NCBI GenBank assembly: GCA_030151135.1
Contig: JASLEQ010000512.1
Span: 1-6,359 of the forward strand
DNA length: 6,359 bases
Reading direction: 5' to 3'
DNA from: Candidatus Sulfotelmatobacter sp.
GTDB lineage: Bacteria > Acidobacteriota > Terriglobia > Terriglobales > SbA1
The position numbers were made by a program, and so were the translations under genes. Under the pieces are notes generated by a model. The model searched no databases. It was not told where the DNA came from and worked only from the letters and a program-made list of their open reading frames with translations. Below, piece by piece: positions 745-6,191 of the stretch; position 1 is the first letter of the stretch; every line of letters begins with the position of its first letter.

Positions 745-1581
745 CTATCTGGCGACCACATTGGTGTTTGACGCAAAATGAAGAGGATATGACCCGCCAA
801 GCACGCTGATTTCGGCTGCGTATCGATAAAAGAGCTGCAATCCTGCGAGACAGCCCGAATCGAGCTGGTAATGAATGTTTTCTGTCAGATATGTGTGTAC
901 ATCGGCCTGAGTGAGACCAAGCCGCGGCCCCCATTCCCGCTCAATTTCCTGTAGGTTTTTCGCCTCGAGTCCATGGTCGCGCGACTCGCGGAAGATCGAA
1001 GCCAGGTCCAGGTTCGGATCGGCTTCTTTAATCGCCTGGGCTCGAACCGCCCAGAAGGCAAAGACGAACGGCTTGCCGGTATAGCGAATCCACTCCTCGG
1101 CGAGATCAAGGGTGTGATATTTCCTGCGATCGACCTGGAGCGCCGGATCTCCGATCAACAATCCTGCGTCGCATTCTTCCAGCATCTTTTCGATATGCGG
1201 CTCCATGGAAACGAACTCTCTTCCGCCGCCGAGCCATTTTTCAAAAAGAATTTTCGTGAGCGCAACCGAAGTCATGGACGAGGTGTCGAGCGCGACAGTG
1301 CGAACTAACTCGACTGGAATTTGGCTCACCAGCAGTATGGAGCGCACTGCCCGGCGCGAAGCGATCGCAACATCCGGCAGGATTCTCAAATCGGGAATTT
1401 GTGCGTAGGCGGCTGCCGGGATGATTCCTAAGTCCGCACTACCATCCGCCAAGGCTCGCGCGCACAGAGAGGGTAAAGTGTAGGAAATATCGAAGCTTTG
1501 GCCCACTTCGGCGTGTTCAAAATCCCACATCAAAGGGGCGGTATTCAGATAAGAGATTGCGGAAATTCGAAGACGTCTCAT
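745..1581 (-). CDS. mqnA: Chorismate dehydratase MqnA (futalosine menaquinone pathway)
   Basis: A 278-residue protein, the normal size for MqnA. MqnA removes water from chorismate to give 3-[(1-carboxyvinyl)oxy]benzoate, the first step of the cytoplasmic futalosine route to menaquinone. Family hallmarks seen in order: ISAISYLNTAPL at residues 6-17, DLGIIPAAAY at 50-59, SRRAVRSILLVS at 75-86, LDTSSMTS at 98-105 and GLLIGDPAL at 140-148, typical of the periplasmic-binding-protein-like two-lobed fold of MqnA/MqnD. The start ATG (1579-1581 on the reverse strand) places the conserved strand at the extreme N-terminus as in the family; the upstream purine-rich GGAAAAG is only a modest ribosome binding site. 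No other mqn gene lies in the window, so the rest of the pathway must be elsewhere. It is divergent from dprA and convergent with the propeller gene. MqnD is the main alternative, but the length and the ISYLNTAPL/DLGIIP signatures favour MqnA. Confidence 0.93.
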   Translation of the reverse strand: MRRLRISAISYLNTAPLMWDFEHAEVGQSFDISYTLPSLCARALADGSADLGIIPAAAYAQIPDLRILPDVAIASRRAVRSILLVSQIPVELVRTVALDTSSMTSVALTKILFEKWLGGGREFVSMEPHIEKMLEECDAGLLIGDPALQVDRRKYHTLDLAEEWIRYTGKPFVFAFWAVRAQAIKEADPNLDLASIFRESRDHGLEAKNLQEIEREWGPRLGLTQADVHTYLTENIHYQLDSGCLAGLQLFYRYAAEISVLGGSYPLHFASNTNVVAR

Positions 1582-1623
1582 TACTTTTCCACAATCTTAA
1601 CAAAGACCTTGTGACATGTGACC

Positions 1624-1653
1624 TTGACAGGGTTCGCCGCAGAAAACTACAGT
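1624..1653 (+). promoter_or_regulatory. Probable sigma70-type promoter of dprA
   Basis: A perfect -35 box TTGACA (1624-1629) is followed after 18 bases by TACAGT (1648-1653), a 4/6 match to TATAAT. Transcription would start near 1660, just before the Shine-Dalgarno GGAG (1661-1664), giving a leader of only about 14 bases. The box lies in the 92-bp divergent spacer with mqnA. The -35 box overlaps the second copy of a direct repeat GACCTTG (1605-1611 and 1620-1626), which could be an operator. Confidence 0.5.
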
Positions 1654-1673
1654 CCGCGTCGGAGTCATATATT

Positions 1674-2834
1674 GTGGACAAAACTGCGGTAATCACCCCC
1701 GCCACGCACGCTCTTGAATGGCTTGCCATGTCGTTAACACCTGGCCTTGGCCCGACCAGCGTCCGAAAATTGGTGCAGCACTTCGGATCTCCTGAAGCTG
1801 TCTTGAGGGCATCATTGACCGAACTCGAGGGAGCGGGAATTCAGGCGGTCTCGGCACAAGCACTGGCAACTGGAAAATCGGCGGAGTTGGCGCGTGAAGA
1901 ACTGGCGCGCGCCGCGGATGCGGGCGTCACCGTGGTCGCAATGGACGATCCGCTTTACCCGAGACGCCTGAAGGAAATCTACGATCCTCCGGTCATTCTT
2001 TATGTGCGCGGAGATGCGGGCCTACTCGATAAACCAGGCATTGCTGTTGTCGGAACTCGCCATCCGACGCCCTACGGTTCCGGTATGGCAGAACGGCTGG
2101 GCTGTGACCTCGCTGCCCAGGGTCTGGTGATTATCAGCGGGATGGCTCGCGGCGTCGATACAGCAGGCCATCGCGGTGCCATCGCGGCGAAAGGCAAGAC
2201 CGTCGCGGTGTTTGGCACCGGTGTGGACGTCATCTATCCCAAGGAGAACTCGCGGCTTTCAGAGCAGATTCTGGCCTGCGGTGGCGCATTGATCTCCGAA
2301 TTTGCTCTAGGTACCTTTGCTGCTCCGCAGAATTTCCCGATACGCAACCGGATTCTCAGCGGAATGTCGGTTGGAGTCCTGGTCGTCGAAGCCGCCGAAT
2401 ATTCCGGCACGCGCATTACAGCGCGCCTCGCGCTAGAGCAGAACCGTGATGTTTTCGCAGTGCCCGGTAACGTTACGAATAAAAATTCCTGGGGGCCGAA
2501 CACCCTCATCAAACAAGGCGCAAAACTGGTTGCAACCTGGGAAGACGTTTGGGAAGATCTCCCTACAGAAGTACGACTTGCGCTGACCCCTCCGGTGTCC
2601 CCTGAATCCGCAGACCCTTCCACGGCATCTCTATTTCCGGACGACGGACTTCCTCCTCACGAGCGGCGCATCCTGAGCCTGCTGAAAGCCGACGAAGCGA
2701 CTCACATCGACCAGATCGTGGAAAAGCTGGAAGCGGAGCTTTCCTCTTCAGAAATCTTCGCCGCCCTCTTCGAGCTGGAGCTCAACGGCAAAGTAAGACA
2801 GATGCCGGGCAAGAATTTTGTGAAGAGCTTCTAG
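1674..2834 (+). CDS. dprA: DNA processing protein DprA (Smf), RecA loader for incoming ssDNA
   Basis: A cytoplasmic protein that binds single-stranded DNA taken up during transformation and loads RecA on it. The GTG at 1674 is chosen as start: GGAG lies 9 bases upstream, and the conserved N-terminal helix (ALEWLAMSLTPGLGP) begins 11 residues in. An ATG at 1557 in the same frame would overlap mqnA and add 39 unconserved residues. From GTG the protein is 386 residues. Order of domains: an N-terminal SAM/HhH-like helical part (about 13-60), then the Rossmann-fold DprA domain with VGTR (126-129), SGMARGVD (155-162) and NFPIRNRI (220-227), GVLVVEA, a SGT-containing ssDNA-binding segment and LIKQGA. 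A C-terminal winged-helix domain follows (about 327-386, starting PPHERRILSLL). All key motifs look intact. The last codons (AGC TTC TAG) merge into the left 7-base repeat array, so the extreme C-terminus may have been shaped by that insertion. Confidence 0.95.
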   Translation: MDKTAVITPATHALEWLAMSLTPGLGPTSVRKLVQHFGSPEAVLRASLTELEGAGIQAVSAQALATGKSAELAREELARAADAGVTVVAMDDPLYPRRLKEIYDPPVILYVRGDAGLLDKPGIAVVGTRHPTPYGSGMAERLGCDLAAQGLVIISGMARGVDTAGHRGAIAAKGKTVAVFGTGVDVIYPKENSRLSEQILACGGALISEFALGTFAAPQNFPIRNRILSGMSVGVLVVEAAEYSGTRITARLALEQNRDVFAVPGNVTNKNSWGPNTLIKQGAKLVATWEDVWEDLPTEVRLALTPPVSPESADPSTASLFPDDGLPPHERRILSLLKADEATHIDQIVEKLEAELSSSEIFAALFELELNGKVRQMPGKNFVKSF

Positions 2835-2867
2835 CCACTGGCTTTTGGCTCTTAGCTCTTGGCTGGA
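2826..2867. repeat. Left 7-base tandem repeat array (RGCTNTT) of the four-helix-bundle element
   Basis: Six consecutive 7-base units in strict phase, starting inside the last codons of dprA: AGCTTCT (2826), AGCCACT (2833), GGCTTTT (2840), GGCTCTT (2847), AGCTCTT (2854) and the diverged GGCTGGA (2861). The consensus is RGCTNTT. The block 2840-2864 is the inverted complement of 3277-3301 with 22 of 25 positions matching. The dprA stop TAG (2832-2834) lies across the boundary of the first two units. Confidence 0.85.
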
Positions 2868-2906
2868 GAACGTTGAGACCGAGCTCGTAATGTAAGGAGA
2901 AGTCCA

Positions 2907-3299
2907 ATGAGGGACTACAGGGATTTGCGAGTGTGGGACGAAGCACATCGATTGACTCTAGCCATCTACCAGGCGACTGCATCATTTCCGAAGGAGGAAC
3001 GATTCGGTTTGACGAGTCAAATCCGACGAGCATCAGCGTCCATAGCCGCGAATCTTGCAGAAGGATGCGGCCGTCGTTCTGATGAGGAAATGAGCAGATT
3101 CGTCCAGATCGCGATGGGTTCAGGTTCCGAACTCTCGTATCATCTGATGCTAGCGCGGGATCTGAAATTTCTGCCGCAAGAGCAATATGCCGATCTTAAC
3201 CCGCGTGTGGAGCGTGTGATGAAAATGCTATCGGCGTTAGCAAGCAAGGTGAGAAGAGGAGCGGTCGTTGGTCTTGAGCCAACAGCTAAAAGCCAATAG
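2907..3299 (+). CDS. Four helix bundle protein (S23 / 23S rRNA intervening-sequence family)
   Basis: A 130-residue protein that I recognise by the family pattern: YRDLRVWDEAHRL at residues 4-16, FPKEERFGLTSQIRRASASI at 27-46, NLAEGCGR at 49-56, and a late helix IAMGSGSELSYHLMLARDL at 68-86. The family (four-helix bundle, first known from ORFs inside 23S rRNA intervening sequences) is related in fold to Avd, the accessory protein of diversity-generating retroelements; its biochemical role is not established, and nucleic-acid binding is only suggested. The start is supported by a strong AAGGAG (2894-2899) 7 bases before ATG. Residues 124-130 (EPTAKSQ) and the stop TAG are encoded by the right heptad array, so the tail is repeat-derived and is not part of the bundle. 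No reverse transcriptase or template/variable repeats are present, so this is not a DGR. Function unknown. Confidence 0.93.
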   Translation: MRDYRDLRVWDEAHRLTLAIYQATASFPKEERFGLTSQIRRASASIAANLAEGCGRRSDEEMSRFVQIAMGSGSELSYHLMLARDLKFLPQEQYADLNPRVERVMKMLSALASKVRRGAVVGLEPTAKSQ

Positions 3300-3318
3300 C
3301 CAATAGCTGACAGCTTGT
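3277..3318. repeat. Right 7-base tandem repeat array (AGCYAAN), inverted relative to the left array
   Basis: Six phased units: AGCCAAC (3277), AGCTAAA (3284), AGCCAAT (3291), AGCCAAT (3298), AGCTGAC (3305) and AGCTTGT (3312). On the reverse strand they read NTTRGCT, matching the left array. Even the R position (A or G) agrees unit by unit across the pairs I could align. The array contains the last seven codons and stop of the four-helix-bundle gene and ends 71 bases before the likely topA start. Confidence 0.85.
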
Positions 3319-3389
3319 GGCGGTAACTTGTCCCTTTCCGCCCATTCGTGCTAGCGTCGAAACGAAAGACGCACAGAACTGAGGATCCA

Positions 3390-5903
3390 TTGTCAAAAGG
3401 TTTAGTCATTGTCGAGTCGCCGACCAAGGCGAAAACGATCGAAAAGTATCTGGGCAAAGGCTTCACGGTCGAAGCCTCGTTCGGGCATGTGAGAGATCTG
3501 CCCAAGAGCACTCTCGGTGTCGACATTAATAACGATTTCGAGACGGACTACATTGTCATTCCTGGCAAAGAGAAAGTCGTTGCCAAACTAAAAAAGCTGG
3601 CGGCATCTGCCGACAACATTTATCTGGCGCCTGATCCGGACCGCGAAGGCGAAGCCATCGCCGCGCATCTTGCCTTTGAACTCGACGAGAACGGCTCCAA
3701 AAACAAGAAGGCCAAAAAAGCGAAAAAGGGTGAGCCTGAGGCTCCGCCGCGCATTCAGCGTGTGACCTTCAATGAAATCACCAAGCGCGCCGTGCAGGCC
3801 GCTTTCGAACATCCGCGTGCCATCGACCAGAACCTCGTCGACGCGCAGCAGGCCCGCCGCGTTCTCGACCGCTTGGTCGGTTATCAAGTCTCTCCTCTTT
3901 TATGGGATAAAGTTCGTCGTGGCCTTTCCGCCGGACGCGTGCAGACCGTCGCCCTCCGCCTGATCGTCGAGCGCGAACGCGAGATCAAGGCATTCGAGAA
4001 AAAAGAATTCTGGACGATCGATGCTCACCTCGCCGCGAATAAGCCACCCGCATTCGACGCTCGGTTCCTCGGCAAAGGCGAAGAGAAGATCGAGATCCCG
4101 AATGGCGAAGAGGCCGAAAAGATCCGTGTCGCGCTGGAAAAAGCCGACTGGATCGTGCGCTCGGTCGAGAAAAAAGAGCGCAGACGCAATGCTGCCGCGC
4201 CATTCACCACAAGTAAGCTGCAGCAGGATGCCTCCCGCAAGCTGCGTTTCAGCGTGAAGCGCACGATGATGATCGCGCAGCGTCTCTACGAAGGCGTGGA
4301 ATTGGGCGAAGAAGGCTCCGTCGGTCTCATTACTTATATGCGTACCGACTCGACGCGGGTCGCGCCCGAAGCCATTGCGGAAGTTCGGGAATACGTTGGA
4401 AAAGAGTATGGCCCAAACTATCTGCCGGAGTCGCCAAACACTTTCAAAGAAAAGAAGGATGCGCAGGGTGCGCACGAAGCAATTCGTCCCACTTCAGCGA
4501 TGCGCCATCCGGATCAGATGAAGCAGTATTTGAAAGAAGACGAATTCAAGGTTTACAAGCTGATTTGGCAGCGCTTCGTCGCCTCGCAGATCAACCCGGC
4601 CGTCTTCGATCAGACTACGGTCGACATTGATGCGAAGAGCGGAAATGAGACTTTCTGGTTCCGCGTCACCGGATCGGTTCTGAAATTCGACGGCTTCCTC
4701 AGGGTCTACGAAGAGTCCAAGGAAGGCAAGGACGAAGAAGACGAAGAACTGAAGCACAAGCTACCCGCGCTCGAAGCCGGACAGAAGTTATCGCTCAAGG
4801 AACTGAAACCCGAGCAACATTTCACCGAGCCTCCTCCGCGCTACAACGAAGCCTCGCTGGTCAAAGAACTGGAAGAGCGGGGTATTGGGCGGCCGTCGAC
4901 CTATGCCGCAATTCTTGGCACGATTCAGGAGCGACAGTACGTGCAGAAGATCGGCGGCAAGTTTGTTCCGACGGAAATCGGTCTGGTCGTCACCGACTTA
5001 TTAGTGGAAAACTTCCGCGACATTTTCGATGTGCAGTACACCGCGCGCCTCGAAGAGGAGCTGGACGAAATCGAAGAAGGTAAAGAGAAGTGGCAGGACG
5101 CGATGTCGGACTTCTGGAAGAAATTCCAGAAGGATCTCAAATATGCCGAAAAGCATATGGAGAACATCAAGCGGATGGAGAAGCCCACCGACGAGAAGTG
5201 CGAAAAGTGTGGCGCTCCGCTGGTGATCAAATGGGGCAAGCATGGTTCGTTCTACGCCTGCAGCACCTACGACAAAGATGATCCAAATACCTGCACCTTC
5301 ACCAAAGAAAATCCCATCAACCTGCCCGATCTCGATTCGGCCGACGAACAGGCGACGGGAGCCCAGGAAGAATACTGCGAGAACTGTGGCCGCGTGATGG
5401 TCCTGAAGCGCGGTCGTTTCGGCCAGTTCATGGCCTGCACCGGCTACCCCGACTGCAAAACCACGCGGCGCCTCGATCAAGGCAAGAAAGTCCCCGACAT
5501 CCCGCTGGATGAACTTTGCCCCAAGTGCGGACGCAACATGATGATCCGTCACGGACGCTACGGAGAGTTCACGACGTGCAGCGGATATCCCGAGTGCAAG
5601 TACGTGAAGCAGAATTACATCGGCGTAAAGTGTCCCGACTGCAAAGACGGCGATCTCGTCGAAAAGCGCGCGCGCAAGGGCAACACGTTTTATGGATGCT
5701 CGAATTATCCGAAGTGCAAATTTACGTCCGCGGGCAAGCCGATCGCAGAAAAATGCCCGAGCTGCGGTAGTGAATATCTGGTGGAAAAGAATTTGAAAGC
5801 GGGCCCGGTGATCGCCTGTCCCAACAAAGAATGCGATTACGAACGAGCCGCGCCGCCACCGCCACCGACGAGCACAGAAGCGGCGGCTGGCACCAACGCG
5901 TAA
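3390..5903 (+). CDS. topA: DNA topoisomerase I (type IA) TopA
   Basis: Relaxes negatively supercoiled DNA by cutting one strand through a 5'-phosphotyrosine link. I choose TTG at 3390: GAGGA lies just upstream and the protein then begins LSKGLVIVESP, placing the Toprim glutamate at residue 9 as in E. coli; an in-frame GTG at 3348 would add 14 unconserved residues. Length 837. Seen in order: Toprim domain with E9 and DPDREGE (D82, D84, E86); LSAGRVQTVALRL; the active site ITYMRTDS with catalytic Tyr316 and Arg318; RPSTYA in the later core. Five cysteine-rich zinc ribbons start at C604, C663, C710, C748 and C789, each with a CxxC and a second cysteine pair. A lysine-rich stretch (ENGSKNKKAKKAKKGEP) interrupts the Toprim domain shortly after the DxD motif, and the C-terminus is a Pro/Ala tail. 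An intrinsic terminator follows. All catalytic residues look intact. Confidence 0.97.
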   Translation: MSKGLVIVESPTKAKTIEKYLGKGFTVEASFGHVRDLPKSTLGVDINNDFETDYIVIPGKEKVVAKLKKLAASADNIYLAPDPDREGEAIAAHLAFELDENGSKNKKAKKAKKGEPEAPPRIQRVTFNEITKRAVQAAFEHPRAIDQNLVDAQQARRVLDRLVGYQVSPLLWDKVRRGLSAGRVQTVALRLIVEREREIKAFEKKEFWTIDAHLAANKPPAFDARFLGKGEEKIEIPNGEEAEKIRVALEKADWIVRSVEKKERRRNAAAPFTTSKLQQDASRKLRFSVKRTMMIAQRLYEGVELGEEGSVGLITYMRTDSTRVAPEAIAEVREYVGKEYGPNYLPESPNTFKEKKDAQGAHEAIRPTSAMRHPDQMKQYLKEDEFKVYKLIWQRFVASQINPAVFDQTTVDIDAKSGNETFWFRVTGSVLKFDGFLRVYEESKEGKDEEDEELKHKLPALEAGQKLSLKELKPEQHFTEPPPRYNEASLVKELEERGIGRPSTYAAILGTIQERQYVQKIGGKFVPTEIGLVVTDLLVENFRDIFDVQYTARLEEELDEIEEGKEKWQDAMSDFWKKFQKDLKYAEKHMENIKRMEKPTDEKCEKCGAPLVIKWGKHGSFYACSTYDKDDPNTCTFTKENPINLPDLDSADEQATGAQEEYCENCGRVMVLKRGRFGQFMACTGYPDCKTTRRLDQGKKVPDIPLDELCPKCGRNMMIRHGRYGEFTTCSGYPECKYVKQNYIGVKCPDCKDGDLVEKRARKGNTFYGCSNYPKCKFTSAGKPIAEKCPSCGSEYLVEKNLKAGPVIACPNKECDYERAAPPPPPTSTEAAAGTNA

Positions 5904-5905
5904 AA

Positions 5906-5947
5906 AGCTTCGAGCTTCGAGCTATGACCAATGAGCCGCGAGCGAAC
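5906..5947. repeat. Second heptad array, left arm (AGCYNNG)
   Basis: Six 7-base units in phase begin two bases after the topA stop: AGCTTCG (5906), AGCTTCG (5913), AGCTATG (5920), ACCAATG (5927), AGCCGCG (5934) and AGCGAAC (5941). The AGC core and 7-base period match the arrays around the four-helix-bundle gene, although the three spacer bases differ. The last two units also form the left arm of the topA terminator, so part of the regularity there may serve that stem. Confidence 0.6.
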
Positions 5948-6149: not shown

Positions 6150-6191
6150 GGCTCATCGCGCACTGGTCACCGCTCATTGCTCATCGCTAGC
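6150..6191. repeat. Second heptad array, right arm (NGCTCAT), inverted relative to 5906-5947
   Basis: Phased units: GGCTCAT (6150), CGCGCAC (6157), TGGTCAC (6164), CGCTCAT (6171), TGCTCAT (6178) and CGCTAGC (6185); a further CCCTCAT at 6135 is one base out of phase. On the reverse strand the array reads AGCNNTG. Bases 6158-6174 are complementary to 5920-5936 at 13 of 17 positions, including the odd unit with ACC instead of AGC present in both arms. The last units overlap the -35 region of the next gene. Confidence 0.6.

Follow-up and report, generated by a model that had tools for sequence, protein, structure and literature searches.

Matched heptad arrays around a free-standing S23 gene: a probable relative of the rRNA intervening sequences in Acidobacteriota

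Between dprA and topA of Candidatus Sulfotelmatobacter sp., a gene for an S23 four-helix-bundle protein stands between two arrays of 7-base repeats in inverse orientation. We consider it reasonably probable that this segment (2826-3318) represents a small mobile element, whose S23 protein would bind the element's own hairpin and mark it for copying or insertion. Arm-matched heptad arrays around an S23 gene are a real and general architecture, and the element is probably a free-standing relative of the intervening sequences (IVS) of rRNA genes, with a protein of Avd-like fold that probably recognizes its own heptad hairpin. The window, by which we mean the whole stretch of 6,359 nucleotides that was analysed, has the following features.

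745-1581, minus strand: an ordinary menaquinone biosynthesis gene (PF02621), upstream of dprA and opposite to it in strand
1557-2834, plus strand: dprA, the upstream host gene (PF02481 and TIGR00732 above cut-offs)
2826-2867, plus strand: left array, AGCTTCT AGCCACT GGCTTTT GGCTCTT AGCTCTT GGCTGGA, in phase 7
2868-2906, plus strand: spacer with a Shine-Dalgarno-like AAGGAG ahead of the ATG (direct reading; putative function)
2907-3299, plus strand: S23 / 23S_rRNA_IVP four-helix-bundle gene, 130 aa (PF05635 and TIGR02436)
3277-3318, plus strand: right array, AGCCAAC AGCTAAA AGCCAAT AGCCAAT AGCTGAC AGCTTGT, inverse of the left array
3319-3389, plus strand: host stretch ahead of topA, recognizable by eye in relatives with and without the element
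3390-5903, plus strand: topA, the downstream host gene (PF01131, TIGR01051)

The S23 locus between dprA and topA

The genes dprA, S23 and topA all lie on the plus strand, and the S23 segment of ~490 bp sits at the dprA stop codon. Judged by its topA relatives, the window belongs among Acidobacteriota of the Terriglobia/Candidatus Sulfotelmatobacter kind. The last codons of dprA and its stop (2834) fall within the first left heptad, and S23 ends inside the right array, which encodes its last codons (stop at 3297-3299). The initial annotation had described the gene as enclosed by the arrays; there is indeed one on each side, but they are not wholly outside the genes. It had also described six in-phase units per side, following RGCTNTT on the left and AGCYAAN on the right. 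Six RGCY tetrads do occur in exact 7-base phase at both 2826-2864 and 3277-3315, but the longer patterns fit only three of the six left units (GGCTTTT, GGCTCTT, AGCTCTT) and four of the six right ones. The complementarity reported for 2840-2864 and 3277-3301 was reproduced (22 of 25 positions pair; 5, 12 and 19 do not), as was the agreement between the arms in purine choice (G,G,A,G). This is more than chance low complexity, as had been argued: the flank-to-flank complementarity score of the locus is 24, a value reached by none of 1000 dinucleotide shuffles (maximum 16), and 316 same-geometry control positions in the rest of the window score at most 12. A predicted RNA fold of 2815-3330 pairs both arms (z -3.27, with none of 100 shuffles equally stable), and an Rfam scan of the window gave no family at gathering score.

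Further heptads lie downstream in the window. Directly 3' of topA (5906-5944) there is a short run of AGCTTCG AGCTTCG AGCTATG followed by looser units; for the short stretch after this run the ORF list shows no S23 gene. The next intergenic region (6151-6188) has a run of GCTCATC type, 5.4 copies at 67% match, and similar GCTCATT runs are present in contig C16 of genome G001.

The protein scores above the curated cut-offs of PF05635 (E 8.5e-38, 129.3 bits against 33.8) and TIGR02436 (E 7.9e-36, 122.6 bits against 24) and has a predicted four-helix fold, the two properties that define S23 membership. The predicted model (pLDDT 90.9) matches the ring-forming XCC0516 (2gsc, TM 0.87) and BT_0352 (2rld), and the Xanthomonas S23 protein is described as a homopentamer of four-helix bundles (PMC4990558). 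In profile scans only S23-type families match, with no nuclease, recombinase or Y1 transposase domain, and the close structural matches include no DDE, DEDD, serine or tyrosine transposase fold. Avd is the partner of reverse transcriptase in diversity-generating retroelements. The model resembles Avd (4dwl) and the Avd subunits of a retroelement reverse-transcriptase complex (8ub7) at TM ~0.7 (Foldseek E 0.01-0.07), but the DivGenRetAVD profile matches the window protein only weakly (E 1.5e-5, 25.3 bits against a cut-off of 80) and no reverse transcriptase adjoins it: the scanned window genes include none, and the neighbours are dprA and topA. A relationship between PF05635 and Avd is pointed out in the text of PMC10053308.

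Matched arrays at other S23 genes

PF05635 is present in 31 of 60 Acidobacteriota genomes, with up to 13 matches per genome. The initial annotation had proposed a search of the flanks of S23 homologues for 7-base arrays, and the outcome does not refute its reading. At 48 of 65 S23 sites the complementarity between 300-bp flanks is above 20, the 99th percentile for 5556 random positions from the same loci, and at 17 it is not; these sites, 25 loci and 40 fetched places, are a subset of the PF05635 matches after removal of six loci cut by contig ends, and those from related genomes are not independent. Control medians are 10 for 600 mismatched partners and 11 for random positions. Both flanks are periodic at 52 of the 65 sites (a single random stretch passes in 5.9% of cases). 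Of the 56 periodic flanks on each side, 36 upstream and 39 downstream have 7 as their best period, and period 8 comes next. ParE genes of the same genomes, 26 usable loci of 30, score 18 at most, with none above 20 and none with both flanks periodic.

The same architecture is found outside Acidobacteriota. All 14 plasmid places fetched from 20 records with an S23 relative have arm-matched short-period repeats, scoring 17-40 with 12 above 20, in a set without a separate control and in which two places (L243 and L244) are one element on two plasmids; 13 of the 14 are cyanobacterial and one is from Azospirillum. On viral contigs, a scan with a single sequence found no relative and an alignment query then yielded 52 loci, of which 49 entered the set and 42 remained after removal of six duplicates and one locus cut by a contig end. 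Scores exceed 20 at 25 of these 42 and reach at least 17 at 34, compared with a 99th percentile of 17.6 and a maximum of 22 at 219 control positions; one score above 20 (L268) is not a repeat, the near-copies L288-L290 and L297 with L299 are counted, and the viral assignment may err. Phage records gave no S23 match. Contigs of metagenome-assembled genomes may be misassembled at repeats, and the plasmid comparisons rest on complete records.

The repeat unit differs by locus. Different S23 genes of a single genome (G010) carry different units, and the arms of each tend to agree. Since each locus has its own unit, the heptad of the window is not a fixed mark of the S23 family. Gene and repeats together appear to act as one small mobile element, found in several bacterial phyla with repeats that differ but match.

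Insertion, turnover and the link between unit and protein

Plasmids with and without the element allow its ends to be compared. In plasmid C of Trichormus variabilis (L242), an insertion of 428 bp consists of left heptads, S23 gene and right heptads, and its empty counterparts on plasmids of Nostoc linckia (L249) and Tolypothrix (L250) have flanks ~98% alike. Scytonema NIES-4073 (L253) has this insertion again, shorter by 14 bp or two units. Nostoc ATCC 53789 (L241) carries an insertion of 417 bp relative to plasmid pB of Nostoc C052 (L256). The elements L236, L241 and L242, at three different loci, share 78-83% DNA identity, and in an alignment by eye their similarity stops at the outer array edges. 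None of the empty sites L249, L250 and L256 contains heptads, and these three clean sites rule out simple repeats that pre-existed at the place of insertion. The alignments show arrays and gene arriving together at heptad-free sites, and that the two are mobile as one unit is well supported by these sequence comparisons.

The junctions vary. GTAA(T) at both ends of the L242 insertion is the only clear target duplication, of 4-5 bp; TTCTA at L241 is ambiguous as such, since the right-end TTCTAG recurs in L236. At L236, L237 and L243, ~12-33 bp of target are gone relative to empty relatives, as judged by eye. At the L246 site the relative carries a different insert, and the comparison of L235 with L255 has an unclear right junction. 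In the window and at L236, L237, L241, L242, L243, L244 and L246, an upstream gene of the same direction has its stop codon within ~20 bp of the left end; by eye this makes at least 8 of 15, with L243 and L244 being one insertion and L238 lacking annotation. Plasmid insertions occupy unrelated operons, and L234, L235 and L245 lie antisense between genes.

At dprA-topA itself, 70 relatives could be compared: the S23 gene is full in 47, partial in four and absent from 19, and well-supported branches require at least eight changes of state. Arms match their own partners at a mean of 21.6, compared with 13.9 when permuted (highest of 5000 permutations 16.3), although at only 12 of 47 loci does no other arm match better than the own partner. 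S23 identity is nearly independent of topA identity (r=0.15; 741 pairs, 39 loci). Among the 35 loci with usable units, assigned by an RGCY rule that leaves out 12 of 47 loci, L042, L047 and L076 among them, because their RGCY units are too few or their proteins short, 32 fall into three S23 types:

Type A: 11 loci including the window, unit RGCT-NTT
Type B: 12 loci, unit RGCT-NTC
Type C: 9 loci, unit RGCT-NCT or -NCG

Unit class follows S23 identity (Mantel r=0.69, 0/5000 permutations) and not topA identity (r=-0.06), so whole elements seem to have swapped at one fixed site. Matching of own arms goes beyond type in A (29/5000 permutations) and C (5/5000); in type B, own arms match no better than those of other loci (4817/5000).

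The initial annotation had also pointed to gene-less relatives as a place to look for arrays. Three of the 19 (L019, L026, L064) hold an array of at least four units, which does not refute the reading either, and L019 and L026 contain gene remnants. S23-matching stretches well above five shuffles each are retained in six of the 19 (L013, L019, L023, L026, L036, L055), with another seven having too little sequence left and six being ambiguous; absence of the gene at this site is at least partly the result of loss. The comparison of relatives shows that element types at dprA-topA replaced one another and were lost repeatedly. Of the two readings offered at the outset, a selfish or a domesticated element, the selfish one with a defined repeat boundary is supported by the heptad-free empty sites, the turnover at dprA-topA and the recurrence of this architecture in many unrelated places; a domesticated dprA-topA gene finds no support and was rejected, given the many losses and replacements.

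A second Acidobacteriota locus, represented by L189, L194, L198 and L202, has similar outer flanks and S23 genes that are 60-66% identical but carry different units; turnover is therefore not confined to dprA-topA. Inverted heptad hairpins without an S23 gene also lie ~2.4-3.5 kb downstream of topA, enclosing ~75-120 bp (L002 12041-12180, L007 10922-11084, L010 10848-11034, L015 10886-11034), and are possibly gene-less derivatives of the element. Gene-less arrays near dprA-topA match the resident S23 type only partly (4/8 for A, 6/10 for C, 0/8 for B).

Away from dprA-topA, among 57 distinct loci with one site each, S23 identity again predicts unit similarity (r=0.21, 0/5000; 0.29 before pairs from the same locus were removed). 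Arms are similar in 3-4% of pairs with proteins below 50% identity, in 8% at 50-60% and, among the 14 pairs with at least 60% identity, in about two thirds. There are exceptions: the S23 proteins of L141 and L139, at different loci, are 78% identical and their arms unlike, and the cyanobacterial L233 and L234 have proteins closest to type B and units closer to type A, so any protein-unit code is loose. These comparisons show that array unit and S23 protein type go together, and from this correlation we infer that the protein recognizes its own heptads. Mismatches between arms lean toward wobble-compatible ones at dprA-topA (75 against 51, p=0.04) and show no such lean elsewhere (104 against 114, p=0.54); G-U wobble was dropped as proof of RNA pairing because of this inconsistency.

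A possible mechanism, its alternatives and related systems

The proposed element would consist of the left heptad array, the S23 gene and the inverse right array, inserted at the dprA stop codon. An S23 ring would bind the matched arms of its own element when these pair into a hairpin, either in the RNA transcript or in single-stranded DNA. It would thereby mark the element for copying or insertion, directing a host enzyme to it. The joining enzyme would be supplied from outside, as the element recognizably encodes none. Reading or copying of both arms through one shared hairpin would keep them matched.

A different division of labour, which we regard as unlikely though deserving of real weight, would make S23 a cargo or regulator of a mobile element and leave movement to a conventional transposase elsewhere, for example of Y1/REP type, acting on anything between matched heptad arms without S23 recognizing the unit. 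Y1/REP-type transposases act on hairpins, the profile and structure searches found no catalytic domain in S23, and gene-less heptad hairpins exist, such as L002, L007, L010 and L015. S23 counts across the 60 genomes, which are not phylogenetically independent, also track Y1_Tnp (PF01797; Spearman 0.55, or 0.50 with genome size removed) more than RVT_1 (0.34, or 0.24) or the ParE control (0.33, or 0.24). A reverse transcriptase found no support as partner, its correlation with S23 being no higher than that of the ParE control. The weight of the Y1 correlation is reduced by the association of the ParE control itself with S23 (odds ratio 4.0, p=0.02) and by six of the 31 S23-positive genomes that have no Y1_Tnp match, including one with seven S23 matches (G012), although in drafts such absence is weak evidence. 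A target duplication is not an expected trace of Y1 transposons, and one was observed; a mover indifferent to the unit also sits poorly with protein and unit co-varying across unrelated loci.

The stable predicted fold of the arms also fits a role in RNA processing without mobility, in which the arm hairpin of a dprA-S23-topA transcript would be cut by RNase III and bound by S23, as autoregulation kept for the benefit of the host. The Coxiella IVS stem is cut by RNase III (PMC4990558), and the mismatches at dprA-topA lean toward wobble-compatible ones. This lean is absent from the other loci, the element has been lost or replaced repeatedly at dprA-topA, and on plasmids it hits unrelated operons and in some cases lies antisense between genes, so that we think RNA processing improbable as a replacement for mobility; it may hold in addition. 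Least credible of all is that the heptads are ordinary dispersed simple repeats with S23 genes among them, or arms produced at each site by slippage of host sequence. Contig C16 (L213-L227, 296 kb) of the related genome G001 does have 13 period-7 arrays of score at least 15, compared with 2, 0, 1 and 0 for periods 6, 8, 9 and 10, and 12 of the 13 lie away from its S23 gene; the 3' end of dprA itself supplies the first unit. The empty sites contradict this reading, matched arms are mostly missing from random positions and from ParE genes, and the units track the S23 protein, not the host.

Among the closest known systems are the IVS of Leptospira, Coxiella and others, which share with this type of element the protein family, complementary ends that form a stem around the S23 ORF, and a length of ~430 bp. 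The Coxiella IVS has 428 nt with complementary ends and an S23 ORF, preceded by two or three GACAGAT heptamers and a degenerate one that vary among strains (PMC4990558), and rRNA insertions of CPR bacteria can encode 23S_rRNA_IVP (PMC11270868). The window element differs in standing between protein-coding genes and not inside a 16S or 23S rRNA gene, so that excision from rRNA is inapplicable, and S23 elements as described here have matched heptads on both sides with a unit that varies by locus. The IVS with S23 genes would be members of the same family that landed in rRNA genes.

REP/REPIN systems resemble the S23 elements in having small inverted repeat pairs around a gene whose type goes with the repeat, and in having gene-less hairpins. 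In the RAYT system a Y1 transposase gene is flanked by repeats that are single palindromes, whereas the S23 gene has no Y1 transposase domain and its repeats are arrays of 7-mers. Terminal inverted repeats, as of a classical insertion sequence, are present here, though imperfect and made of tandem units, but a transposase of its own (DDE, DEDD, serine or tyrosine) is not recognizable in the element. The TAACTGA arrays of Beggiatoaceae, Cyanobacteria and Bacteroidetes are likewise short tandem heptamers between genes in several phyla; in PMC4679880 they are scattered, of unexplained origin and without an evident transfer mechanism. A word search of its main text finds neither "four helix" nor "S23" nor "intervening sequence", and the parts compared here describe no matched inverted arms around a gene.

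S23 genes are also met in cas loci, where 18 23S_rRNA_IVP genes, some of them between cmr2 and cmr3, have been grouped with CRISPR-Cas-associated functions (PMC3936711). In our plasmid set, L237 likewise lies between cmr2 and cmr3, and L233 and L246 between cas6 and cas4. The cmr2-cmr3 gene is present in PCC 7003 and absent from Picosynechococcus PCC 7002, and all three look like insertions, not Cas components. Matched heptad arms around free-standing S23 genes are absent from the IVS, CPR, cas-locus and TAACTGA reports in the parts compared here, and searches of the open-access literature, a scope that leaves aside most subscription papers and all bioRxiv preprints, brought up no paper recognizable as describing them.

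The S23 family is widespread and owes its name to its fold alone. More than 25 years after rRNA IVS were discovered, both what they do and where they come from were still called unclear (PMC4990558). As a tentative and broader reading, which we hold as possible without favouring it, S23 would define a new, recombinase-free class of mobile element, in which a four-helix-bundle ring protein reads a diversifiable 7-base code within the inverted arms of its element and recruits a host enzyme to copy the hairpin. Such elements would have spread among Acidobacteriota, Cyanobacteriota and others, and their visible traces would be the rRNA IVS and many dispersed bacterial heptamer arrays. Should free-standing mobile elements with a matched heptad code have S23 as their core gene, the binding of heptads and the identity of the mover become directly testable, some of the dispersed heptamer arrays of bacterial genomes could be explained, and the S23 genes in CRISPR-Cas operons would be insertions rather than Cas components.
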